The notes under the pieces were generated by a model. The model was given only the letters and a program-made list of their open reading frames with translations. It ran no database searches and was not told where the DNA came from. Position numbers and translations under genes: made by a program. From the NCBI GenBank assembly GCA_903894295.1, contig CAITPI010000131.1:1-51865 (forward strand): DNA of 51,865 nucleotides, read 5' to 3'. This document shows, piece after piece, positions 13,797 to 49,868 of the stretch (position 1 is the stretch's first letter; every line of letters begins with the position of its first letter). This stretch comes from an uncultured Acidimicrobiaceae bacterium (lineage in GTDB: Bacteria > Actinomycetota > Acidimicrobiia > Acidimicrobiales > RAAP-2).

Positions 13797-14894
13797 TCAG
13801 TCCTCGGGCCAGACGGGTCCGGCGTCACCGTCGGCGAACGACTCGACCATCTCCATGGCCACGTCATCGTGGAACTGCACGGGCGGGGACTTCATGAAGT
13901 AGGCGCTCGGGCCCAGCAGCGGTCCACCGATGCCCCGGTCCAGGGCCAACTTGGCACACCGGACGGCGTCGATGATGACGCCGGCCGAGTTGGGGGAGTC
14001 CCATACCTCGAGCTTCAGTTCGAGATTCAGCGGCACGTCGCCGAAGTTGCGACCCTCCATGCGGATGTAGGCCCACTTGCGGTCGTGCAGCCACGGCACG
14101 TGGTCCGACGGTCCGATGTGCACGTCTTCGGCTGCCAGCGTGGTGTTCTCGATCTGGCTGGTGACCGCCTGGGTCTTCGAGACCTTCTTGGACTCCAGAC
14201 GCTCGCGCTCGAGCATGTTCTTGAAGTCCATGTTGCCACCGACGTTCAACTGGTAGGTGTGGTCGAGGGCCAGACCCCGGTCCTCAAAGAGGCGGGTAAG
14301 GATCCGGTGCACGATGGTGGCGCCGACCTGGCTCTTGATGTCGTCGCCCACGATCGGAACCCCGGCTTCCCGGAACCGGCGGGCCCAGACGGGATCCGAG
14401 GCGATGAACACCGGGATGGCGTTGACGAAGGCGACGCCGGCTTCGATGCAGGCGTTGGCGTAGAACCGCTGGGCCTCTTCCGACCCGACCGGCAGATAGC
14501 TCACCAGCACGTCGGCGTTGGCTTCCTTGAGGGCCGCCACCACATCGACCGGTTCGGCCGGAGACTCCTCGATGGTCTCGCGGTAGTACTTCCCGAGACC
14601 GTCAAGGGTGGGGGCCCGCAGCACCGGAATGCCGAGTTCGGGCACCGGGGCAAAGCGGATCGTGTTGTTCTGGCCGGCGAAGATGGCCTTCGAGAGGTCG
14701 GAGCCGACCTTGGCCGCATCCACGTCGAAGGCGGCGACGAACTCGAGGTCACCGACGTGGTAGCCGCCGAGGACGACGTGCATGAGTCCGGGGACCGAGA
14801 GATCGGGTTCGGCGTCCCGGTAGTACTCGACGCCCTGGATGAGGGAGCTGGCGCAGTTGCCCACGCCGGCGATGGCTACTCGGATCTTGTTCAT
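13797..14894 (-). CDS. ino1: Inositol-3-phosphate synthase
   Basis: The enzyme converts glucose-6-phosphate to 1L-myo-inositol-1-phosphate with NAD, the entry step for phosphatidylinositol lipids and mycothiol. The 365-residue protein shows the Rossmann start [16 protein letters not shown], the segments [11 protein letters not shown] and [15 protein letters not shown], the [12 protein letters not shown] motif, and SKTQAV with the conserved lysine. Length matches the actinobacterial/archaeal short form. AGAAGGGAAACCACC precedes the ATG. padR lies immediately upstream on the same strand, 65 bp away, so PadR may control it. Confidence 0.97.
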
Positions 14895-21882: not shown

Positions 21883-22356
21883 CTATCGGGTTGGAAGCAG
21901 GGCAGTCGAGACGAGGATGGCCGTTCGGGCCAGACCGGCGTCCCGGTGGACCAGGATGTCCCGGTAGGCGGGGTCCCGGATCATGTCGATGAAGGTCCCG
22001 GCTTCGGGATACTGCATGATCGCCACCTGGTCCCAGGGACCGATGTCGCCGATGAGCACCTGGTGGACCTGGTTGAACAGGGTCACCGTGGCGCCCCGCG
22101 CCCCGGCCAGAGCCATCACCGCCATGCTGTAGCGGCCATAGGCGTCCGCCCCCGAGATTCCCGAGCCGGCCAGCTCGTGGCCTTCGGGGTAGGTGGCGAT
22201 CTCGTGGTAGCGGAGGAGGTTGACGAACTGGAGTGGTCCGGGCCGCTCCACCCTGACCAGTTCGCCCAGGGCCTCAAGGTCGGGGTTGATCCCGCCGAGC
22301 CCGTGGCCGGCGAGCTCCTCGAGCAGCGCAGTGATCTCGGCTTCGGACCGTTCCAT
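21883..22356 (-). CDS. DUF1330-like dimeric alpha/beta-barrel protein
   Basis: The 157-residue protein has the pattern of ferredoxin-like DUF1330 proteins: LQFVNLLRYHEIATYPEGHE, SGADAYGRYSMAVMALAGARGATVTLFNQV, WDQVAIMQYPEAGTFIDMIRDPAYRDILVHRDAGLARTAIL. The biochemical role of the family is not established. The start at 22356 opens the recognisable region; there is no clear Shine-Dalgarno sequence. It lies 29 bp downstream of the desaturase gene on the same strand, so it may be co-transcribed. A second, longer member is at 48182-48856. Confidence 0.85.
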   Translation of the reverse strand: MERSEAEITALLEELAGHGLGGINPDLEALGELVRVERPGPLQFVNLLRYHEIATYPEGHELAGSGISGADAYGRYSMAVMALAGARGATVTLFNQVHQVLIGDIGPWDQVAIMQYPEAGTFIDMIRDPAYRDILVHRDAGLARTAILVSTALLPTR

Positions 22357-39812: not shown

Positions 39813-39872
39813 ATGGATGACGGCATCCGGCGGGGAGAGCCGAAGATCCATGGGTCGACAACCAGAAAGTGA
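39813..39872 (+). CDS. Putative leaderless micro-ORF upstream of the first TetR-like gene
   Basis: A 19-codon frame (MDDGIRRGEPKIHGSTTRK) starts 6 nt after CAGTAT with no Shine-Dalgarno sequence. Its TGA overlaps the GTG of the TetR-like gene (GTGA). It resembles no known peptide. Its role may be to deliver ribosomes to the regulator start, which itself has only a weak site. Confidence 0.4.
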   Translation: MDDGIRRGEPKIHGSTTRK

Positions 39873-40693
39873 CAAGGCCTGACGTGCCCTCCCAACCTAC
39901 CGCCACCATGAAACGTCAACCCCGGTTGCGCCGGGAAGAGTTGCGTTCACTGATGCTTGAAGCCGGCCGGGCCATCCTGTTCGAAGACGGCCTTGGGCTG
40001 TCCGCCGAATCCCTCACCTTCAAGAAGGTCTTCGACCGGGTGGAGGCGGAAACGGGCATCCGTATCACCAACGCTTCGGTCATCGGTCGGGTGTGGAGCG
40101 GTCAGGACGCGTACCGGGTGGACGTGGTGGACCGGCTGGCGACCACCATGGCCGCCGAAGACGGAAGCCTGCTGGACACCGAGTACGAGGCCGTCTTCAT
40201 CTCGGTGGCGGTGGCCCTCGAGGGTCTGGACCTGACCGATCCGGACGACCGGGCGTTTGGGTTGCAGGAGATCGCCCGTCGGTCGACCCGGGTGGGTTCA
40301 GGCGCCATGGAAGAGTCACGATGGGTCTTTCGCACCGTCGCCTGGATGATGACGGTCTTCGGCGTCTCCGGACAGAAGGACGTCGATGTGTTGCAGCACA
40401 CCATGGGCACGGCCTATACCCGATCCCTCGAGCGTTTTCGGGAGTTGAACTCGACGTTGATGACCTTGCTCGGGTTGCGGATGCAGCCGGGTCTCAGCAT
40501 CGACGATTTCACCCGGGCCCAGATGGCGTTCCTGGAAGGGTTCCAGTTGCGTCAGGCCATCGAGGGCCCGTTGCCGGACGTGATCCTGCCGACCGGGCAC
40601 GACGGAAGTGACCAGGAGTGGTCGATGGCGGCCATCGGAGTCCAGGCATTGGCCCAGCGGTACTTCGAGGTTGATCCGGAGCACTCGTGGTGA
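39869..40693 (+). CDS. TetR-like regulator, tandem copy 1
   Basis: The 274-residue protein starts with a helix-turn-helix region of TetR character: LRREELRSLMLEAGRAILFEDGLGLSAESLTFKKVFDRVEAETGIRITNASVIGRVWSGQDAYRVDVVDRLA. The rest is helical with no recognised ligand domain. It closely resembles the next gene in the HTH (SLTFKxxFxxxE, TNASVIGRxWSGxDxYRxDV), so the pair arose by duplication. The start at 39869 is chosen because the micro-ORF ends on it; GTG 39884 (after AAGG) and ATG 39908 remain possible. It overlaps the next gene by GTGA. Confidence 0.8.
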   Translation: MTRPDVPSQPTATMKRQPRLRREELRSLMLEAGRAILFEDGLGLSAESLTFKKVFDRVEAETGIRITNASVIGRVWSGQDAYRVDVVDRLATTMAAEDGSLLDTEYEAVFISVAVALEGLDLTDPDDRAFGLQEIARRSTRVGSGAMEESRWVFRTVAWMMTVFGVSGQKDVDVLQHTMGTAYTRSLERFRELNSTLMTLLGLRMQPGLSIDDFTRAQMAFLEGFQLRQAIEGPLPDVILPTGHDGSDQEWSMAAIGVQALAQRYFEVDPEHSW

Positions 40694-41493
40694 CGCCGGC
40701 CACGAAGAAGACGACGTCCACCCGTCAACGCCGGGAACGGCTGAGCCGGGAGGAGTTGCGTGAACTGCTGTTGGCCACCGGGGAGGAGATCCTCCGGAAC
40801 GAAGGTATGGCGGCCGGGGTAGGGAGCCTCACCTTCAAACGCGCCTTTGAGTGGATCGAGGAGCACCGGGACCTTCGGTTCACCAATGCCTCGGTGATCG
40901 GACGGATCTGGAGTGGCCTCGACGAGTACCGGGCCGACGTGCTGGCCCTGGTGGCCGACGACTTCGCCAGCGGGGAGATCGACGCGGTGGCCGAATCCCT
41001 GGCGCCCTACTTCGAAGCGGTCGACCTGACCGATCCGGCGTCGCGGTTGGCCACCATCCGTCAGCTCTGCCGGGCCGGCGCCGCCGCCGCCCTCCTGCCA
41101 CTGGACGACGGCGATGCCTGGGTGCCGTGGCTTGGTGTGCTGCTGGCCCACTGTTTTGACGGACAACAACCCGGAATGGACCGCCTGGGCGAAGCGATCC
41201 GGCGGAGCGTGTCGATCAGCAACTCGTCGTGGGAAGTTGTCTACACCGAGGTGTGCCAGGCCGTGGGCTGGCGGTTCCGCCCACCGCTCACCGCCTCCCA
41301 GTTCGTCCGGCTGGTCGGCGCCCTGGCCGACGGTTTCGTCAGGGCAAATTCCGTGGTCGAACCCGGGCCGATGATCACGCTGGCGACCGGGGAAGACGGC
41401 GCCAACGAGGAGTGGCACAACTTCGCCGTGGCCTTCGAAGCCCTGACCTTTGCCTTCTTCGAACCGGACCCGGACTGGACGCCACCGGTCTGA
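40690..41493 (+). CDS. TetR-like regulator, tandem copy 2
   Basis: The 267-residue paralogue of the preceding gene has the same N-terminal unit: LSREELRELLLATGEEILRNEGM, SLTFKRAFEWIEEHRDLRFTNASVIGRIWSGLDEYRADVLALVADDF. The C-terminal half has diverged strongly but has similar length and the same ending pattern (LATGEDGANEEWHNFAVAFEAL against LPTGHDGSDQEWSMAAIGVQAL). GTG at 40690 overlaps the previous stop; GTG 40687 is equally open. Coupled expression suggests that the two proteins may form a heterodimer. Confidence 0.82.
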   Translation: MTPATKKTTSTRQRRERLSREELRELLLATGEEILRNEGMAAGVGSLTFKRAFEWIEEHRDLRFTNASVIGRIWSGLDEYRADVLALVADDFASGEIDAVAESLAPYFEAVDLTDPASRLATIRQLCRAGAAAALLPLDDGDAWVPWLGVLLAHCFDGQQPGMDRLGEAIRRSVSISNSSWEVVYTEVCQAVGWRFRPPLTASQFVRLVGALADGFVRANSVVEPGPMITLATGEDGANEEWHNFAVAFEALTFAFFEPDPDWTPPV

Positions 41494-41514: not shown

Positions 41515-42261
41515 ATGGGTGCGCCACCGTTTGTGCTGGTTCCTCCCTCCGAGGGAAAGGCCGAAGGAGGCAGACCCGGTCACAAGCCCGGTTCGTTTGA
41601 CGATCAACTGGCCGCGCCGCGCCAGGCCGTCGCCACGGCCGTGCGCCGGTTGCTCGACGAGGGTGACAATGCCACGTGGGCCCGGGTCTTCAAGGCCCGA
41701 GGAGACCTGTTGGAGCGGGCGGTCTCGGCCTGGCGGACGACCCTTGCCGGCGAGGCGCCCGTTCTACCGGCGTGGCGGCGTTACACCGGGGTGGTCTGGG
41801 GTGGTCTGGATCCCGGAAGCCTCTCGTTGGCCCAACGGCGACGCCTGCTCGTGCCCTCCGCCTTCTACGGCATCACCACCGCGGAAGATCCGGTCGTCGA
41901 CTACCGCCTGACCTTCCTCGTCTCCCTGACGGGCCCGGGGCCGTTGGCCCGTTACTGGCAGCCGATGCTCACCGAGGCGCTGGCGGCCCGGGTGGGAAGG
42001 AGACCGGTGGTGGACCTGTTGCCGGCCGAACATGCCGGCGCCATCGACTGGGTCCGACTGGGCGGGCGGGCCCGGATCTGCCGGGTACGTTTTCTTGCCG
42101 TTGACGGCCAGCGGGCGGCCGGTCACGCCGCCAAGGCGGCCAAGGGTGCGCTGGCCCGCCTGGTCGTCGACGAGGGGACCGACGCCATTGCGTCGTTTGG
42201 ATGGGAAGGTTGGCGGGCCTTTGCCGACGGTGACTCCTGGGTCGTGGTGGCTCCGTCCTGA
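41515..42261 (+). CDS. yaaA: YaaA family peroxide-stress protein
   Basis: The 248-residue protein begins with the family signature VLVPPSEGKAEGG and has GVVWGGLDPGSL, LLVPSAFYGITTAEDPVVDYRL, VVDLLPAEHAGAIDW and the basic segment VDGQRAAGHAAKAAKGALARLV. E. coli YaaA lowers free iron and DNA damage during peroxide stress and binds DNA. The ATG is predicted leaderless (TACGTT at 41501-41506, 8 nt upstream). It stands alone between the TetR pair and the thiol operon. Confidence 0.93.
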   Translation: MGAPPFVLVPPSEGKAEGGRPGHKPGSFDDQLAAPRQAVATAVRRLLDEGDNATWARVFKARGDLLERAVSAWRTTLAGEAPVLPAWRRYTGVVWGGLDPGSLSLAQRRRLLVPSAFYGITTAEDPVVDYRLTFLVSLTGPGPLARYWQPMLTEALAARVGRRPVVDLLPAEHAGAIDWVRLGGRARICRVRFLAVDGQRAAGHAAKAAKGALARLVVDEGTDAIASFGWEGWRAFADGDSWVVVAPS

Positions 42262-42559
42262 GCGGGACGACCCGGGTTCGACCCGGAACGTCCCCCTCCT
42301 CTCGAACACCGGCCCGTGGGAGGACAACCTTGGCCGTCCCGGCCGGACGCATTACTGTCATAGGGAGTGCCAATAGGTCACGGTCACCGCAGACCGGTCC
42401 GCCCTCTTCTGTCACGGTGGCCGTCGGATGACGACGACCGACGACGGCCGAGACGACGGGACGCAGGACGGTGAACCCGGTGAAGAGTTCAATGGAGAGC
42501 TCAATGGAGTCCAGGTTGGAACACACGTTGACGAGCAGGATGGAAGGAAAGGTGGAGCG
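42262..42559 (+). promoter_or_regulatory. Promoter and long leader of the thiol/GST operon
   Basis: TACTGT (42353-42358) is the best -10 candidate, giving a leader of about 195 nt. GGTCACGGTCAC (42376-42387) is a tandem GGTCAC pair just downstream of the start and could bind a regulator. TCAATGGAG occurs twice (42489-42497, 42501-42509). A possible leaderless GTG at 42367 opens a basic 35-codon frame with no known match. The SDR itself has a good ribosome site, so the leader is probably regulatory. Confidence 0.4.
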
Positions 42560-43375
42560 ATGGAACTGAACGATCGGGTGGCCGTGGTGACCGGTGCGGC
42601 GTCAGGAATCGGGTTGGGCCTGGCCCGGAGGTTTCTCGACGAGGGGATGAAGGTCGTCATGGCCGACATCGAGGCCGACGTTCTGGCCGAACGGGCGAAC
42701 GAGTTGGCCGGAGCTGGAGGCAGGGTCGAAGCCGTGGTGTGTGACGTGTCGGATCCCGACCAGATCGCCGCCTTGCGGGAGAAGACCCTCGAGGCCTTCG
42801 GTGCGGTCCACCTCCTGTGCAACAACGCCGGGGTGGCCTGTGGACGACCCAACGTCAAGACCCGGCCCGACATGTGGCAGTGGGTGGTGGGTGTGAACCT
42901 GCTGGGTGTTGCCTATGGTGTCAGCGCCTTTGCGCCCCTGATGGTCGAACAGGGTGAGGGGCACATTGTGAACACCGCATCCGAAGCGGGACTCACCGCG
43001 TCCCCGTTCCTCGGCTCCTACCACGCCACCAAGTACGCCGTGGTGGGACTCTCCGAGTCCCTTGCCATGGAACTGGCGGACACCGGCGTGGGCGTGAGCT
43101 GCCTCTGCCCCGAGTTGGTGCGCACCCGGATCTTCGAGTCCACCCGCAACGCCCCGGACGCACTGGGTCTGCCCGACCCGGGCACCATCCCCTTCGACCA
43201 GGTGGAGAAGATGATGGACTCGGTCGGCATGGAGCCGGCCGACCTGGCCGGCCGGGTGGCCTACGCCGTCAAGACCAACCGGTTCTGGGTCCTGACCCAC
43301 GACGCCACCAAGAGCCGGGTGGCCAATCGGAACCGGGCGCTCGAGAACCTCCAGAATCCGAAGTTCGGGCGATGA
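42560..43375 (+). CDS. Short-chain dehydrogenase/reductase, first gene of the thiol operon
   Basis: A classical SDR of 271 residues: VAVVTGAASGIGLGLARRF, DIEAD after the second strand, LCNNAGVACG, YHATKYAVVGLSESLAMEL (Tyr and Lys), and a C-terminal FWVLTHDATKSRVANRNRALENL found in many actinobacterial members. AAGGTGGAGCG precedes the ATG at 42560; in-frame codons back to 42428 look non-coding. In glutathione-dependent isoprene and styrene pathways an SDR oxidises the glutathione conjugate; a similar role is inferred here from context only. Its stop overlaps the next start by ATGA. Confidence 0.9.
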   Translation: MELNDRVAVVTGAASGIGLGLARRFLDEGMKVVMADIEADVLAERANELAGAGGRVEAVVCDVSDPDQIAALREKTLEAFGAVHLLCNNAGVACGRPNVKTRPDMWQWVVGVNLLGVAYGVSAFAPLMVEQGEGHIVNTASEAGLTASPFLGSYHATKYAVVGLSESLAMELADTGVGVSCLCPELVRTRIFESTRNAPDALGLPDPGTIPFDQVEKMMDSVGMEPADLAGRVAYAVKTNRFWVLTHDATKSRVANRNRALENLQNPKFGR

Positions 43376-44001
43376 GGGCCACCGTGGAGAAACCGGTGCT
43401 GGCCACCGGCCCGGTGGACGGTCGTTCGGCTCGACGGGACCGGAACAAGACGGCCGTGCTCGACGCCGTGCTGGAACTGTTCCAGGAAGGGTCCCTCTCG
43501 CCGGGACCGGTCGAAGTGGCCCAACGGTGCGGGCTCTCTCCCCGCTCGGTCTACCGCTACTTCGACGACGCGGACGAACTGGTCCGGGCCGCCGTCGACC
43601 GCCATCTGGAGTTGACCCTGCCCTACTTCCACCTTTCGGCCATCGGCCAAGGTCCCCGGGACGAGCGCATCGATCGGTTCGCCGAGCGCCGGGTGACCCT
43701 CTTTTTCAAGGTGGGCGACGTGAACCGGGCGGCCCGGCTGCGGGCCGCCACCAGCGAGGTCATGGCCAACACCCTGGCCATGACCCGCCGCGAGCTGAAG
43801 GCCCAGGTCGAACGGCACTTTGCTCCCGAGTGGGCCACCCTGAAGCCCGCTCTACGTCGCCGGCGACTGGCGCTCGTCGACACGCTCACCCAGTTCGAGA
43901 CCCTCGACACCTACCGCCAACTGCACGGCATGGACCAGGAGTCCACCACCACGATGGTGGCCGAAGCCCTGGAGGATCTGCTGCCTGGTTCGGCGAGATG
44001 A
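43372..44001 (+). CDS. TetR family regulator of the thiol operon
   Basis: The 209-residue protein has a clear TetR HTH: RDRNKTAVLDAVLELFQEGSLSPGPVEVAQRCGLSPRSVYRYFDDADELVRAAV. A helical C-terminal ligand domain without named subfamily follows. The gene lies inside the operon with ATGA overlaps on both sides, so it is made along with the enzymes and probably regulates the operon by sensing its substrate. No relation to the tandem TetR-like pair is seen. Confidence 0.9.
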   Translation: MRATVEKPVLATGPVDGRSARRDRNKTAVLDAVLELFQEGSLSPGPVEVAQRCGLSPRSVYRYFDDADELVRAAVDRHLELTLPYFHLSAIGQGPRDERIDRFAERRVTLFFKVGDVNRAARLRAATSEVMANTLAMTRRELKAQVERHFAPEWATLKPALRRRRLALVDTLTQFETLDTYRQLHGMDQESTTTMVAEALEDLLPGSAR

Positions 44002-45059
44002 CCTCTCCGGTGCCTTCCCCGTCGGGGCCGACCGCCGAGCGGCCGTTGCGTCTGGGTGGAGCCTTCTCTTCGCCGTATTCGATCAAGATGCGGGCCGTGC
44101 TCCGCTACCGGCGGATCCCCTTCGTCTGGGTTCCCCGGGACTCGAAGTGGGACGACCTCCCGCCGGTGCCGGTCCGGATCATTCCGGCCATCGCCTTCCC
44201 GGACGAAGACGGTGCCTATCGGGAAGCTGCCGTGGACTCGTCGCCGTTGATCCTCCGTCTGGAGGAACTGGTCCCGACCCGCCGGGTCGTCCCGGCCGAT
44301 CCGGCGCTTGCCTTCCTCGATGCGCTGATCGAGGACTACGGCGACGAGTGGGTGACCAAGGCGATGTACCACTACCGCTGGTACTACCCGGAGTGCATCG
44401 CCAAGGCCGGCCACCTGTTGCCACTCGAGCTGGACCTGCAGATGGAGGATCGGACCTGGGGGCGGTCCAACGAGTACGTCACCGACCGTCAGATCTCCCG
44501 GCGGGCGCTCGTCGGCTCCACCGAGGAGAACCGGCCGGTGATCGAGGGCTCGTACGGGCGGCTGCTCGACCTCATGGAACGACATCTGGCCGAAGAGTCT
44601 TTCTGGCTCGGGCAACGGCCGGGCTGCGGTGACTTCGGAATCTTCGGCCAGCTGAGCCAGCTGGTGCTGTGGGATCCGGTCCCGGCGAAGTTGGCGGTCG
44701 ACCGGGCGCCCCGGGTGGTGCCCTGGTGCCTGCGAACCGACGACGCCTCGTGGTGGCCGGTGGTTGACGACGAGGGCTGGAACGACCGGGATTCTCTGGC
44801 CCCGACCGTCGGGGAACTGTTGGCCGAGATCGGCTCCACCTATGTCCCGTTTCTCGTCGCCAACGCCGCAGCCCTCGAGGAGGGACGCAACGAGGTGGTC
44901 TCCGCTTCGCCCGACGGCCCCTACCGTCAGGCCCCGTTCCGTTACCAGGCCAAGTGCCTGGGTTGGCTGAGGGACCGCTTTTCCGCCCTCGGTCCGTCCG
45001 ACCGGCAGTGGGTGAAGGCCACGCTCGCCTCGACCGGCTGCGAACCACTGCTGCCGTGA
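43998..45059 (+). CDS. Glutathione S-transferase-like protein, long form
   Basis: The 353-residue protein starts with a thioredoxin-like GST domain (LRLGGAFSSPYSIKMRAVLRYRRIPFVWV, RIIPAIAFPDEDGAYREAAVDSSPLILRLEEL), in which a Ser/Tyr pair stands where Cys sits in omega-type enzymes. The all-helical C-terminal domain includes HLAEESFWLGQRPGCGDFGIFGQLSQL. An extra ~100-residue tail ends PFRYQAKCLGWLRDRFSALGPSDRQWVKATLASTGCEPLL. Long GSTs of this type occur in proteobacteria and some actinobacteria. It overlaps its neighbours by ATGA and GTGA. Substrate unknown. Confidence 0.85.
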   Translation: MTSPVPSPSGPTAERPLRLGGAFSSPYSIKMRAVLRYRRIPFVWVPRDSKWDDLPPVPVRIIPAIAFPDEDGAYREAAVDSSPLILRLEELVPTRRVVPADPALAFLDALIEDYGDEWVTKAMYHYRWYYPECIAKAGHLLPLELDLQMEDRTWGRSNEYVTDRQISRRALVGSTEENRPVIEGSYGRLLDLMERHLAEESFWLGQRPGCGDFGIFGQLSQLVLWDPVPAKLAVDRAPRVVPWCLRTDDASWWPVVDDEGWNDRDSLAPTVGELLAEIGSTYVPFLVANAAALEEGRNEVVSASPDGPYRQAPFRYQAKCLGWLRDRFSALGPSDRQWVKATLASTGCEPLLP

Positions 45060-45754
45060 GTTCCGTCCTGGCCCCGGAGTCCGAAGTGGCCCTGTTCGGC
45101 CACTGGATCTGTCCCTTCTCCACCCGGGTCGAGTTCGCCCTGGTGGAGCGGACCATCCCCTTTGCCCTCGTGGACGTCCCGCCGACCGCGGCCCGACCGC
45201 CCGGTTACGTCGTCCCCGACGAGTTCGTCCGGCACAGCCCCCGGGGGGAGATTCCGATGGTGCGGGTGGGTGACCGGTACCGCGCCGACTCCCTGCCGAT
45301 CCTGGCCTGGCTCGAAGAGGTACGAAACGAGCCGTCACTGGTGCCCGAGGGGGCCGGACCGGCCGGCCTCGCCTGGGAGCGGGCCGGATGGCTGGACGCC
45401 AACCTCTATCCGGCCATGATCGGCATCTACTACGGCACGGACGACCGGCTCGTTGCCGGGGCCTCGGACGCCCTGGGCGACACCCTCGTCGAGATCGACC
45501 GTTGGCTCGGGGATGGAGAGTGGCTGGCCGGCGAGCGCATCTCGGTGGCCGAGGCGGTCATGGTGCCCTTCTACGTCCGGCGTCGTGGCCTCGAGCGGCT
45601 CGGACTGCGGGCCGAACTGCCTGACCGGGTGGCTCGCCACGAGGCGGCGACCATGGACCGGCCCGCCGGTCGGGCCGTGGCCTGGAGCGGGGAACAGACC
45701 GAAGAGTTCGTCGGGCGTTTCGAGCGCTACCGCGTCTCCCGCCGATCCCGCTAG
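45056..45754 (+). CDS. Glutathione S-transferase-like protein with CPFS site
   Basis: The 232-residue protein has an N-terminal thioredoxin-like domain with ALFGHWICPFSTRVEFALVERTIPF and HSPRGEIPMVRVGDRYRADSLPILAWLEE (Pro-cis and the glutathione gamma-Glu-binding region). A helical domain with DRWLGDGEWLAGERISVAEAVMVPFY follows. A single redox Cys in CPFS is typical of omega/beta-like GSTs that reduce or cleave glutathione conjugates. GTG at 45056 overlaps the preceding stop (GTGA). It is the second GST-like protein of the operon and different in sequence from the first. Confidence 0.88.
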   Translation: MSSVLAPESEVALFGHWICPFSTRVEFALVERTIPFALVDVPPTAARPPGYVVPDEFVRHSPRGEIPMVRVGDRYRADSLPILAWLEEVRNEPSLVPEGAGPAGLAWERAGWLDANLYPAMIGIYYGTDDRLVAGASDALGDTLVEIDRWLGDGEWLAGERISVAEAVMVPFYVRRRGLERLGLRAELPDRVARHEAATMDRPAGRAVAWSGEQTEEFVGRFERYRVSRRSR

Positions 45755-45765
45755 GGCGACGCGGG

Positions 45766-46704
45766 ATGGAGATGGTGGTGCTGGCCGATCCCCTCGAGGG
45801 ACTCGATCCGGGTTCGGACACTTCGTTGTGCCTGATGGGGGCCGCGCTGGAACGGGGCCATCGGGTCTTCCATACGACGCCGGGTGCACTCACGTTGGCC
45901 GACGGTCGCCTTGCGGCGGCGGTGACCCCCATGCGACCGGGGAGGGGTCGGTCCGGCCCGGAACCGGAAGGACACGAGGACCTCGTCCGGGACCTGGCCT
46001 CGGTCGATCTGGTGATGCTCCGGGCCGACCCACCGGTGGATGCGGCGTTTGTGGCGATGACGCTCCTGTGTGAGACCGTGCGGGGCCGCACCGTCCTCGT
46101 GAACGATCCCCGCGGCCTGCGGGAAGCGAACGAGAAACTCCTGGCCACCCGGTTCCCCGACCTGATGCCGGCCACGGTGGTCACCGGCCGGTGGAGCGTG
46201 TGCGAGGAGTTTCTGGCCGAACATCCCGAGGCGGTGATCAAACCCCTCGACGGTCATGGCGGCCGGGACGTGGTCCGGCTGCACCGGGATGGACGGGGGG
46301 CGGAGGCTTTCGGGCGGTTGACCGGCCACGGTCGGAGGCCGGTCATGGTCCAGGAGTTTCTCGATGCGGTGCGGGACGGTGACCGCCGGGTCCTCCTGCT
46401 CGACGGAGAGCCGATCGGAGCCCTGCTGCGCCTACCGGCGCCCGGGGAGTTCCGGGCCAACCTAGCCCTTGGCGCCACCGGCCACGTGGTGGAACCCGAT
46501 GCCGACGACCGCAGGATTGCCGCCCGGCTGGCCCCGGAGTTACGGGCCCGGGGCCTGGTGTTGGTCGGAATCGACGTGATTGGTGGTCGACTCACCGAGG
46601 TGAACGTCACCAGCCCGACCGGTCTGGTGCCCATGGTGGGCCCGTCCCGCCGGCCCGACCACGAGATCGTGGCCTGGCTGGAACGGCGGGTGGCAGAGAG
46701 TTGA
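45766..46704 (+). CDS. gshB: Glutathione synthetase-like ATP-grasp ligase
   Basis: GshB joins gamma-glutamylcysteine to glycine with ATP. The 312-residue protein has the family's landmarks: VDLVMLRADPPVDAAF, VLVNDPRGLREANEKLLATRFPDLMP, VIKPLDGHGGRDVVRL (ATP loop), VMVQEFLDAVRDGDRRVLLLDGEPIGALLRLP, GEFRANLALG, LVGIDVIGGRLTEVNVTSPTGL (metal ligands). Length is that of proteobacterial GshB. Mycothiol-using actinobacteria normally lack this enzyme. It overlaps the next gene, a glutamate-cysteine ligase, by TTGA, so the two steps are co-made. The last substrate could be an amino acid other than glycine. Confidence 0.92.
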   Translation: MEMVVLADPLEGLDPGSDTSLCLMGAALERGHRVFHTTPGALTLADGRLAAAVTPMRPGRGRSGPEPEGHEDLVRDLASVDLVMLRADPPVDAAFVAMTLLCETVRGRTVLVNDPRGLREANEKLLATRFPDLMPATVVTGRWSVCEEFLAEHPEAVIKPLDGHGGRDVVRLHRDGRGAEAFGRLTGHGRRPVMVQEFLDAVRDGDRRVLLLDGEPIGALLRLPAPGEFRANLALGATGHVVEPDADDRRIAARLAPELRARGLVLVGIDVIGGRLTEVNVTSPTGLVPMVGPSRRPDHEIVAWLERRVAES

Positions 46705-48128
46705 GGGAGGACGACGAAGCGTCGGTGTCCCTCACGGAGATGGAGGCCACCCGGCTGATCCTGGCCCAACTGCCTGCGGCCGGACATGCCCGGGACCAGA
46801 TCGCCGTGGAAGCCGAGTGGCTGGTGGTCGACCGGAAGGAAGGAACCCGGGTGGTCACGGTGGCCGAAGGGAGAGCCGCCGTGGGCCGATCGCCGCTGCC
46901 CGCCGGTGGCGTGGTCACGTTCGAACCGGGGGGCCAACTCGAGGTGAGTACGAAGGCGACCACCGATCCCGACGAGTTGGTGGAACGACTGGAAGTGGAC
47001 ACCAGAGAAGTGGCGGCCCGGCTGGAACCGGCCGGTCTGGCCATGGTGCCTCTCGGCCGGGATCCCCTCCGGCCGCCGGTGGCATCGCTCGATCTTCCCC
47101 GCTACCGCCTGATGCGCCAGGCCTTCGACCGTCAGGGTCCTTCCGGAGCCGTGATGATGTGCAGTACGGCGTCCCTCCAGGTGAACATCGATCCGGGGCG
47201 GGACGCCTGGTCCTCGTGGGTGACGCTCTCCCGTTGGGCCCCGGTCATCGCCGCCCTGTTTGCCAACTCGCCAACGTTCGCCCCGGATTCCCGGTGGTCG
47301 CCCGGGGGACGGGGGACAGGGTTGGCACCCGGGAAGTCGTTCCCGTCACCGTGGGGCGCGCCGACGGACGTGACGACCATGTCACAACGTCGTGGTTCCG
47401 GTTCGACCGATGGGTCCCGGATGGCCAACTGGTGGTTGATCGATCCGTCCCGCACCGCTCCGGTGCCGGTGGACGGTCCGGACCGGTGGGTCGACTATGT
47501 CTTCGGCGCCACGCTGTTGTTCCGGGCGGATTCTTCGGGCGATCTCGTGGCGGCCCCGGGTGGGACGACCTTCCGGGAGTGGCTGGCCGGTCCGGGTGAT
47601 TTCCGGCGACCGGACGCCACCGATCTTGCCCGGCACCTTTCGACCCTGTTTCCTCCGGTGCGTCCCCGTCGGTGGCTGGAGGTCCGGATGATCGATGCGG
47701 TCCCCGAAACGGTCCGGTCCGTGGTGGTCGGTGTGGTGTGGGCACTGCTGCACGACGATGAACTGGCGTCCCGGGCCATGGCGGCACCCGACGGACCCGG
47801 TGGGGAGGGTCTTCCCGGCCGTGATGGTTGGCGCCGCGGATCATGGAGGGGCCTGCCGGGGTGGGAGGCGGCGGCGTTGTCTCCGGATCATCCGGCGATC
47901 CAGGCGGCCGGTGGGTTTCTGCTTGATCGGGCGGTGGCTGTCCTCGACCAGGCCGGCATCCGCCTGGGAACGGCCGTGCGCCGGTGGCGGGACGGGCCGT
48001 TCCGGTCGGGTCTCAGTCCGGCGAGGATCAGCCGCGGGCGGTTCAACCCCGAGGCTCCGGGGTGGTCACTGGCCGAAGATTCCCGCCCGCCAGGCCCTGA
48101 TCCCCAGGCCCTGATCCCGGGACCCTGA
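46701..48128 (+). CDS. Glutamate-cysteine ligase, EgtA/GshA family
   Basis: The enzyme makes gamma-glutamylcysteine from Glu, Cys and ATP. The 475-residue protein has EAEWLVVD, VTFEPGGQLEVSTKATTDPDELVERLEVDT, LDLPRYRLMRQAFDRQGPSGAVMMCSTASLQVNID, ALFANSPTF, WWLIDPSRTAPV and RWLEVRMIDAVP, all characteristic of the actinobacterial GCS2/EgtA group. A Ser/Gly-rich insert of about 40 residues follows NSPTF. No EgtB, C, D or E is present, and GshB is adjacent, so glutathione rather than ergothioneine is the likely product. The start may be TTG 46701 (coupled to gshB), GTG 46725 or ATG 46740. The last codons are made of a 14-bp tandem repeat. Confidence 0.88.
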   Translation: MREDDEASVSLTEMEATRLILAQLPAAGHARDQIAVEAEWLVVDRKEGTRVVTVAEGRAAVGRSPLPAGGVVTFEPGGQLEVSTKATTDPDELVERLEVDTREVAARLEPAGLAMVPLGRDPLRPPVASLDLPRYRLMRQAFDRQGPSGAVMMCSTASLQVNIDPGRDAWSSWVTLSRWAPVIAALFANSPTFAPDSRWSPGGRGTGLAPGKSFPSPWGAPTDVTTMSQRRGSGSTDGSRMANWWLIDPSRTAPVPVDGPDRWVDYVFGATLLFRADSSGDLVAAPGGTTFREWLAGPGDFRRPDATDLARHLSTLFPPVRPRRWLEVRMIDAVPETVRSVVVGVVWALLHDDELASRAMAAPDGPGGEGLPGRDGWRRGSWRGLPGWEAAALSPDHPAIQAAGGFLLDRAVAVLDQAGIRLGTAVRRWRDGPFRSGLSPARISRGRFNPEAPGWSLAEDSRPPGPDPQALIPGP

Positions 48129-48165
48129 TTCCGGGATCCTGATTCCGGGACCCTGATTCCCGGTT
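48096..48165 (+). repeat. 14-bp tandem repeat spanning the end of the glutamate-cysteine ligase gene
   Basis: Five head-to-tail units of the type CCTGATTCCGGGAC (starting at 48096, 48110, 48124, 48138, 48152) with a few changes in the outer ones. The stop codon TGA lies inside the third unit. Because 14 is not a multiple of 3, gain or loss of a unit would shift the frame and change the C-terminus. Adjacent units can pair through CCCGGG/GATTCC segments, so the array may also act as a terminator. Confidence 0.85.
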
Positions 48166-48181
48166 GCCGGCCCGGCCCGGC

Positions 48182-48856
48182 TCAGGTGTTCCGGGAGTCC
48201 CCGAGGGAGGCGGCAATCAGGGTCGAGAGCCGGTCGATCGACGGACGGGTCCGCACCTCCATGGCCCCATCGGGCAGGTCGTCGTGCCGGTCGGCCCACG
48301 AGACGAGGATGTGGCTCCAGATCCGCTCGTCGCCGATCACGGTGCCCTCCACCTCGAGCAGGACACCTTCTTCGGGGACGGGGACCTCGCTGCCTTGCCG
48401 GTAGGCGACGAAGCGAACCACGCCGGATCCGTCGGGCCCGCCGACGACCTGGACCCGGGGCCGGCAGCCACTCACGATGGTGAACTCCATGCCGGCTTCC
48501 TTGTGGACGACCTTCTCCTTGAAGTCCTGTCTCGACTGCATGTCGATGAAGGACTTGCGGGTCGGGTAGCGGACGATGCCCATGCGGTGCCAGACGTCGG
48601 CCGACGCTCCCTCGGGACCTTCGACGTCACCGAAGAACGCCACGTCGGCTCCGATGGCGGCCAGAACGTTGACCGGGGCGTAGCGGTCGTCGGCTTCCCG
48701 GCCCGAGATGGTCCCGGACTCCCCGTCGCCGTAGGAGGCGCGTTCCTTGTACCTCATGAAGTTGACCATGAAGATCGGGCCGTCGTCCCTGGGTGCGGTC
48801 ATGGCCATCTGGCCGGCGTAGGCCATGTTCACGGTGCCGAAATCGTCGTATCCCAT
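48182..48856 (-). CDS. DUF1330-like protein with C-terminal extension
   Basis: The 224-residue protein carries the same ferredoxin-like pattern as the gene at 21883 (IFMVNFMRYKERASY, SGREADDRYAPVNVLAAIGADVAFFGDV, WHRMGIVRYPTRKSFIDMQSRQDFKEKVVHKEAGMEFTIV). An added ~85-residue part follows with no known domain (VVRFVAYRQGSEVPVPEEG, WSHILVSWADRHDDLP). The ATG is predicted leaderless: TACCCT (complement of 48864-48869) lies 7 nt upstream. Function unknown. It converges on the thiol operon, ending 53 bp from its stop. Confidence 0.82.
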   Translation of the reverse strand: MGYDDFGTVNMAYAGQMAMTAPRDDGPIFMVNFMRYKERASYGDGESGTISGREADDRYAPVNVLAAIGADVAFFGDVEGPEGASADVWHRMGIVRYPTRKSFIDMQSRQDFKEKVVHKEAGMEFTIVSGCRPRVQVVGGPDGSGVVRFVAYRQGSEVPVPEEGVLLEVEGTVIGDERIWSHILVSWADRHDDLPDGAMEVRTRPSIDRLSTLIAASLGDSRNT

Positions 48857-48992
48857 GCTCCGGAGGGTAACCGTTGGCAGTTGGATTGACAATTGTTTGG
48901 TGGGCGGCTTCCCGGGCCGTGGGCCTGCCCCGGCGGTGGAAGGGGGGAGCAAACAAGTGGCAGCAGGTTTGTCACCAGCCTAAGGTTCGGGC

Positions 48993-49868
48993 ATGAAGTT
49001 CGGAATCGTCTTTGCCAACACCGGCCCCTTCGCCCGGGCGGACAAGGCCCGGGAGATGGCGGTCGAGGCCGAGGCCGCCGGTTTCGAGTCGCTCTGGACC
49101 GTGGAACACGTGGTCGTGCCGGCCGGCTACGAGTCGCCCTACCCTTACGACCGCTCGGGCCGGATGCCCGGTGGAGACGATTCACCCATCCCCGATCCGC
49201 TCATCTGGCTGACGTACCTGGCCGCCGTGACCTCCACGATCAGGTTGGCCACCGGCATCCTGATCCTTCCCCAGCGGAATCCCCTGGTGCTGGCCAAGGA
49301 GTTGGCCACCCTGGACCGGATGTCCGAGGGCCGGATGCTGCTGGGCACCGGCGTGGGCTGGCTGGAAGAGGAGTTCAAGGCCCTGGGCGTTCCCTTCGCC
49401 GACCGGGGACGGCGGAACGACGAGTACCTGGCGGCCATGCGGGCCCTGTGGTCGGAAGACCAGGCCAGCTTCCACGGAGAGTTTGTGGACTTCGACAACT
49501 GTCTTCTGCGGCCCCGACCGGTCGATCACGGGATCCCGGTCCACATCGGCGGACACACCGACATCGCCGCCCGGCGGGCCGGCCGACTGGGCGACGGATT
49601 CTTCCCGGCCAAGGGAAGCCACGACGAGTTGGCCCGCCTGTTCGACGTGGTGCGCACGACGGCCGAGGAGGCCGGCCGGGATGCCTCGACCATCGAGTTC
49701 ACCGCCGGTGGCAACGGGGTCTTCGGGCCGAACGCCCTCGACGAGGTGGCGGCGTTGGAGGCCATCGGCGTGGACCGGGTCGTGGTGCCGTCCTTCCTGT
49801 TCTGGGAGAACACGGCCGAGGCGCTGGCCGCCTACGGGAACGACGTCATCGCCCCGTCCCGGGGTTGA
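48993..49868 (+). CDS. LLM-class F420-dependent oxidoreductase
   Basis: The 291-residue luciferase-like TIM barrel begins MKFGIVFANTGPFARADKAREMAVEAEAAGFESLWTVEHVVVP. It contains TSTIRLATGILILPQRNPLVLAKELATLDRMSEGRMLLGTGVGWLEEEF and GIPVHIGGHTDIAARRAGRLGDGFFP, all typical of the TIGR03619-like F420 group. The substrate is unknown. The ATG is predicted leaderless (TAAGGT at 48981-48986, 6 nt upstream). It is divergent from the DUF1330-like gene. Confidence 0.93.
   Translation: MKFGIVFANTGPFARADKAREMAVEAEAAGFESLWTVEHVVVPAGYESPYPYDRSGRMPGGDDSPIPDPLIWLTYLAAVTSTIRLATGILILPQRNPLVLAKELATLDRMSEGRMLLGTGVGWLEEEFKALGVPFADRGRRNDEYLAAMRALWSEDQASFHGEFVDFDNCLLRPRPVDHGIPVHIGGHTDIAARRAGRLGDGFFPAKGSHDELARLFDVVRTTAEEAGRDASTIEFTAGGNGVFGPNALDEVAALEAIGVDRVVVPSFLFWENTAEALAAYGNDVIAPSRG

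Follow-up and report, generated by a model that had tools for sequence, protein, structure and literature searches.

Evidence for a conserved, probably co-regulated cluster of glutathione ligase and glutathione S-transferase genes in an uncultured Acidimicrobiaceae bacterium

We analyzed a 51,865-nucleotide stretch of DNA (contig CAITPI010000131.1 of assembly GCA_903894295.1; hereafter the window) from an uncultured Acidimicrobiaceae bacterium and found an operon of six plus-strand genes at positions 42560 to 48128, encoding a short-chain dehydrogenase/reductase (SDR), a TetR family regulator, two glutathione S-transferase (GST)-like proteins, a glutathione synthase (GshB), and a glutamate-cysteine ligase (GCL). 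This cluster recurs in related genomes, and it is real as a conserved unit, probably with a regulon of its own. On balance, we favor reading it as an inducible, glutathione-dependent module for degradation or detoxification. Its genes are the following:

42560 to 43375, plus strand: SDR family oxidoreductase, 271 aa; PF00106 (adh_short), 173.8 bits; 68 to 69% identical to the cluster SDRs of five compared genomes
43372 to 44001, plus strand: TetR family regulator, 209 aa; PF00440 (TetR_N), 26.0 bits against a cut-off of 24; homologues in the clusters of G301, G305, G246, G306, and G307 (handles of compared genomes)
43998 to 45059, plus strand: GST1, long GST-fold protein, 353 aa; GST_N_3 and GST_C_2 above curated cut-offs; N-terminal SPYS motif, Ser/Tyr-type
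45056 to 45754, plus strand: GST2, 232 aa, GTG start; GST_N_2 and GST_N_3 above curated cut-offs; N-terminal WxCPxS motif, Cys-type
45766 to 46704, plus strand: GshB, glutathione synthase by family, 312 aa; NF003573, 301.0 bits against a cut-off of 272; GSH-S_N, 90.5 bits; GSH-S_ATP, 185.3 bits; within the GshB group in a tree
46701 to 48128, plus strand: GCL, GCS2-type putative glutamate-cysteine ligase, 475 aa, TTG start, divergent; PF04107 (GCS2), 134.2 bits; insertion of about 36 residues

Translation and coordinates bore out the gene set and the shared strand described in a sequence-only reading of this DNA, with 4-nucleotide overlaps at four junctions and an 11-nucleotide gap ahead of gshB. 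The gene names proposed there also stood, with Pfam matches above the curated cut-offs and NCBIfam in agreement. The G+C content at third codon positions (GC3) of the six genes was 0.78 to 0.86, compared with 0.864 (standard deviation, 0.041) for the other called genes of the window; the GCL gene, at 0.78, was about two standard deviations low. We consider mis-assembly or mis-binning unlikely because the GC3 values are near the window norm and the gene set is found in four other genomes of the genus. A scan for promoters and terminators returned nothing above shuffled sequences.

By family, the window GshB is a glutathione synthase, and it is predicted to add glycine. The Escherichia coli enzyme (1gsa) is homologous and matched it over residues 4 to 287 (E = 8e-55); the window gene differs from it in its GST-operon setting and in a diverged C-terminal end. 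All six orthologues compared (G297, G300, G301, G305, G359, and G246) scored above both the NF003573 and the TIGR01380 cut-offs. In a 29-row tree, whose four RimK-type rows included three fragments and whose window row departs from the model in composition, the window protein fell inside a 17-row GshB group (support, 96/97), apart from the RimK-type proteins. We therefore rejected a RimK-type ligase, and the grouping with unrelated ATP-grasp enzymes that the sequence-only reading had named as fatal to its annotation was not what the tree gave.

GshB has a patchy distribution. At an E value of 1e-30, it was found in 6 of the 150 genomes of the family sample (our own, G297, G300, G301, G305, and G359), the first five of which belong to the 14 genomes of the genus. 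In the class sample, 105 of 296 genomes gave a match at E = 0.001, with only our own, G246 (46%), and G021 (39%) being clear by identity. The G021 protein may be foreign; it groups with E. coli GshB and lies on an 11-kb contig of a genome that is 5% contaminated. It was also the sixth of six next-tier proteins scanned, the other five of which had a PRK12458-like subfamily, under its cut-off, as their best match; this related subfamily accounts for a large share of the next tier. Such a GshB-like protein of the PRK12458 subfamily, below the model cut-off, occurs in other class members (L006, L007, L008, L010, and L014).

Within the genus, GST1, GST2, and GshB are adjacent in all five GshB-bearing genomes, i.e., in 4/4 besides our own, a recurrence above chance. 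The order is intact in G297, G300, and G305; in G301, GST1-GST2 and the beginning of GshB lie on one contig, the end of which overlaps the contig bearing the remainder over 428 bp at 98.6%. The order in G359 is GST2-GshB-GCL-GST1, and in G246 GshB-GCL are accompanied by a TetR, an alpha/beta hydrolase, and a DUF2855-like protein. The clusters of the genus additionally hold a DUF2855 protein (PF11017) and a second long GST (GST1b, 390 aa). In G300, G301, G305, G306, and G307, the cluster lies beside a formate-tetrahydrofolate ligase gene and a major facilitator superfamily (MFS) transporter gene (83 to 87% identical), and we regard these as one locus on account of the common flanks; the window cluster is located elsewhere. 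At that locus, G306 and G307 hold GST1b, the SDR, TetR, the conserved, distantly DUF1330-like protein, and the haloalkane-dehalogenase-like hydrolase (both described below), and G306 additionally has GST2 and the luciferase-like gene. An uncharacterized protein of about 205 aa, u206, is encoded in three tandem copies before GST1 in G301 (L095:2134-4398) and in one copy in G300 and G305; the window has none.

The two GSTs differ in type. The WxCPxS motif, kept in 7/7 GST2 orthologues, and the SPYS motif, kept in 6/6 GST1 orthologues, are taken here to hold a catalytic Cys and a catalytic Ser/Tyr, respectively. A proline followed by an Asp-Ser pair, presumably the site that binds the gamma-glutamyl part of glutathione, was found in all seven GST2 proteins and in five of the six GST1 proteins, the sixth (G301) being missed by the pattern used. 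GST2 resembles GSTs and dehydroascorbate reductases. GST1 had no match to a solved structure at E = 0.001, and its single-sequence fold prediction gave a predicted local distance difference test score (pLDDT) of 37. Among the 14 genomes of the genus, GST1 is present in 5/5 with GshB and in 0/9 without it (Fisher P = 0.0005, uncorrected for relatedness). Outside the family, 5 of the 395 other genomes in the phylum sample, four of them from the same class, had GST1 at 51 to 61% identity.

The best NCBIfam match of GCL is EgtA (TIGR03444), with a score of 212.6 bits (cut-off, 370.8), and this raises the alternative that GCL is the EgtA of this genome, feeding ergothioneine synthesis, with GshB as a side branch. 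EgtB (568 bits) and EgtD (340 bits) are encoded together on another contig of the genome, no second GCS2 gene was found in it, and a 14-row ligase tree (a mis-framed G302 row and two distant G303 rows having been left out of 17) neither placed the window GCL nor separated the cluster ligases from EgtA proteins with support, all of which would suit that alternative. On the other hand, GCL shares the GCS2 family with the EgtA of actinobacterial ergothioneine clusters but scores far below its cut-off, and its setting differs: the EgtA-like gene adjoins EgtB and EgtD in 4/4 reference actinobacterial loci, whereas neither is present in the window or in the five relatives' clusters searched (G297, G300, G301, G359, and G246). 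Within the genus, moreover, GCL follows GshB rather than EgtD, being present in the cluster of four of the five GshB-bearing genomes and in none of the nine others, while EgtD occurs in 12 of the 14; GCS2 proteins outside such a cluster were seen in G302 and G303. For these reasons we think a standard EgtA unlikely, and a GCL that serves ergothioneine synthesis, with GshB on the side, very improbable. The window ligase is 36 to 41% identical to those of five relatives; compared with its relatives, it carries about 36 extra residues inserted behind FANSP and is extended at its tail, and a local frame change is possible. A 14-bp tandem repeat (48090 to 48160) spans the end of the GCL gene and the gap behind it, and a tRNA-Leu called there by ARAGORN (48093 to 48186) was judged spurious because of this repeat and the lack of a match to an Rfam tRNA family.

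A promoter motif common to the relatives makes co-regulation of the cluster units probable. In six relatives' loci (G297, G300, G301, G305, G306, and G307), a site like TGTATCTTCTGTCAGATACC lies in the divergent promoter between the GCL/GST1b and the DUF2855/luciferase/SDR units, where it overlaps the palindrome CTGTCA-N7-TGACAG, exact in five of the six and one letter off in G297. The G297 site is also the weakest, at 24.9 bits compared with 30.2 to 33.0 for the others; the score model was made from these six sites, the second-promoter and window sites not being used, so the scores of the six are not independent. The core TCTTCTGTCA also precedes the u206-GST1-GST2-GshB unit in G300, G305, and G301, and GST2 in G306. 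Over seven relatives' loci it occurs nine times, always at one of the two cluster promoters (0.025 copies expected), and G301 has eight-letter copies ahead of two more u206 genes. In the relatives, the glutathione unit and the SDR/TetR unit are linked by this motif. No copy of the 10-mer was present in the G359, G246, G043, and G003 loci. The window has one copy (0.09 expected; 9 of 100 shuffles had one):

42405 to 42414, plus strand: operator-like core TCTTCTGTCA with a degenerate second half-site, located 155 bp ahead of the SDR start

The TetR protein of the operon may be the factor that binds this motif, and it may sense the substrate.

The conserved neighborhood does not stop at the end of the GCL gene. 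The operon boundary drawn at 48128 by the sequence-only reading is too tight, as the next two genes belong to it:

48182 to 48952, minus strand: conserved protein, distantly DUF1330-like; no Pfam match of its own; 29% identical to the DUF1330 protein at 21883 to 22356
48993 to 49868, plus strand: luciferase-like oxidoreductase of the TIGR03619 F420-dependent type, 280.2 bits against a cut-off of 166.9; F420 use predicted from family

The clusters of G297, G301, G305, G306, and G307 contain homologues of the former, the G300 contig stopping short of that point. The latter is kept in the cluster of 4/4 other GshB-bearing genomes of the genus (65 to 72% identity in G297, G300, G301, and G305) and in G306 (74%). 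With this enzyme directly behind the operon and so conserved, the earlier statement that no monooxygenase is present was too strong; the enzyme is at most a candidate oxygenase. A genome search for the diiron, IsoA-type monooxygenase family (PF02332) gave no match, but neither did the control genomes. The clusters of G301 and G305 further encode a hydrolase of the haloalkane dehalogenase subfamily PRK00870 (402 bits in G305, against a cut-off of 265); a search confined to the window found none there. The GST1b orthologue of our own genome (70%) lies outside the glutathione cluster, on contig C70, beside a small DUF1330 protein (L093:3293-4957), and its sole DUF2855 protein is only 47 to 48% identical to the genus cluster type. 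In G043 (L118:8188-17141), GST1-GST2, TetR, another long GST, and a DUF1330-like protein are arranged around a sulfatase gene, with GshB absent. Upstream of the operon, the window genes at 39869 to 40693 and 40687 to 41493 encode adjoining proteins of similar length that look alike on inspection; neither Pfam nor NCBIfam gave a match for them.

This neighborhood bears on whether the glutathione made by GCL and GshB would instead be a general redox or stress thiol, with the GSTs as broad detoxifiers and no single-substrate pathway behind them. A peroxide-stress YaaA gene lies shortly upstream of the operon (41515 to 42261), and the scan of the cluster genes turned up no gene for uptake, for a CoA-transferase, or for an aldehyde dehydrogenase, both in keeping with such a role. 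However, a general thiol sits poorly with the patchy occurrence of GshB and with its company, as it travels with particular GSTs, in the relatives also with the SDR, the luciferase-like oxidoreductase, and the DUF2855 protein, and in G301 and G305 with the haloalkane-dehalogenase-like hydrolase. The private promoter motif likewise argues for a dedicated regulon, and we regard a general stress thiol as unlikely.

Several findings weigh against a dedicated glutathione module. The window GshB scored 295.6 on TIGR01380, 3.4 bits under the cut-off of 299.05, and its branch is the longest of its genus group (0.75 versus 0.24 to 0.33); the window TCTTCTGTCA lacks a proper second half-site; and no TetR match was found in the G297 cluster. 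Neither GshB at E = 1e-30, nor GST1, nor a GCS2 match was found in G306 and G307, which keep other cluster genes, so the glutathione part is separable from the rest. No GCS2 match was found in G305, a GshB-bearing genome that is 71% complete. Outside the family, the link between the GSTs and GshB breaks: G043 and G003 (same class, two other genera) have GST1-GST2 together but gave no match to GshB, G075 has GST1 and likewise no GshB match, and G027 has GST1 and only a 29% RimK-like match. The operon may thus not be, in a strict sense, a unit that makes and uses its own glutathione, the "self-contained" operon of the sequence-only reading. Since these genomes have the GSTs and no clear GshB, the enzymes may work with some other thiol or one taken up from outside, be it mycothiol, ergothioneine, gamma-Glu-Cys, or imported glutathione, with GCL and GshB a recent add-on. 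The G306 cluster, with GST2 and the rest of the module retained, and the G305 result would suit this, and authors writing on styrene and isoprene degraders leave another thiol open, some known degraders having no GshA (PMC8552685). Within the genus, however, GST1 occurs only alongside GshB, and the retention of one gene order across diverged genomes points to a durable association. We hold the use of a thiol other than self-made glutathione to be quite improbable, and continue to favor the inducible glutathione-dependent module.

The genome seems to have other thiol systems as well, and its bacterial group as a rule depends on a protective thiol different from glutathione. The sequence-only reading had placed the glutathione genes in a genome with a mycothiol-type route, pointing to ino1 in the same window, and that gene is confirmed (PF01658 at 13797 to 14894). 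MshA-like and MshC-like proteins are present too, but below the curated cut-offs. The MshA-like protein scored 420 bits (cut-off, 462.5), the next glycosyltransferase reaching 103. The MshC-like protein scored 413 bits on the MshC model (cut-off, 485.1) and 341 on the cysteinyl-tRNA synthetase model (cut-off, 340), and a second MshC-type gene (247 bits) lies at a contig end. The MshC model matched in 31/31 relatives searched, with none above the cut-off and at least 390 bits in 27. The mycothiol-type genes can therefore be called present, but not beyond doubt.

In the module as we picture it, GCL would couple glutamate and cysteine, and GshB would then add glycine. GST1, the Ser/Tyr-type enzyme, would attach the resulting glutathione to an electrophile, which the luciferase-like oxidoreductase and/or the SDR may help to form or process, and GST2, the Cys-type enzyme, would remove glutathione again by thiol exchange. 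In the presence of the substrate or of an intermediate, TetR would come off the operator ahead of the operon. A second thiol would thus be made on demand, atop the mycothiol-type and ergothioneine systems already in place. Such a module, conserved yet patchily distributed, with unrelated GSTs and in an uncultured lineage, would mean that this solution has more than one origin. The operon, its operator, and its group of hosts would then give a concrete setting for asking what leads a cell with mycothiol to produce another thiol as well, and for which compound.

According to PMC8552685, Actinobacteria seldom use glutathione, and where they do, it is mostly for the sake of unusual carbon sources. 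The papers listed by the literature search included none on an operon like this one: the single paper listed for gshB in this group concerned Acidithiobacillus, DUF2855 was absent from the papers searched, and the accessible part of PMC12008989 names glutathione but not gshB. Among known systems, the isoprene cluster on a plasmid of Rhodococcus sp. AD45 consists of isoABCDEFGHIJ with gshA, gshB1, and gshB2; like the window operon, this inducible cluster joins glutathione synthesis genes to two unlike GSTs (IsoI and IsoJ) and a dehydrogenase (IsoH) (PMC4676930). It differs in having isoA-F and the CoA-transferase gene isoG, with no such gene identified in the window cluster, and in having MarR regulators rather than TetR. 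In Gordonia rubripertincta CWB2, plasmid pGCWB2 carries a styrene cluster with StyA/StyB, a CoA transferase, and an aldehyde dehydrogenase in addition to gshB, a GCS2-type ligase, an SDR, and a pair of dissimilar GSTs. The window cluster shares the layout common to both pathways, in which an SDR and two unlike GSTs accompany gshA and gshB, and its ligases are 38% (GshB) and 34% (GCL) identical to those of pGCWB2. The GSTs of pGCWB2 (StyI and StyJ, named by place), the only ones compared, are not orthologues of those in the window, however, with a best E value of 0.01 for GST2 and no match at E = 1 for GST1; nor did the SDRs match at E = 1, and a CoA transferase and an aldehyde dehydrogenase were not identified among the window cluster genes scanned. 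The likeness noted in the sequence-only reading thus holds as an analogy: the cluster appears to work like the isoprene and styrene clusters and is not one of them by its GSTs. It is quite possible, and we put this forward tentatively, that Actinobacteria have here a glutathione pathway of a third type, next to those two. Its own kind of GSTs, an F420-type oxidoreductase, and an SDR, joined in the relatives by a haloalkane-dehalogenase-like hydrolase and a DUF2855 protein, would process a perhaps halogenated substrate, and glutathione would be produced as needed under a single operator, in addition to mycothiol and ergothioneine.

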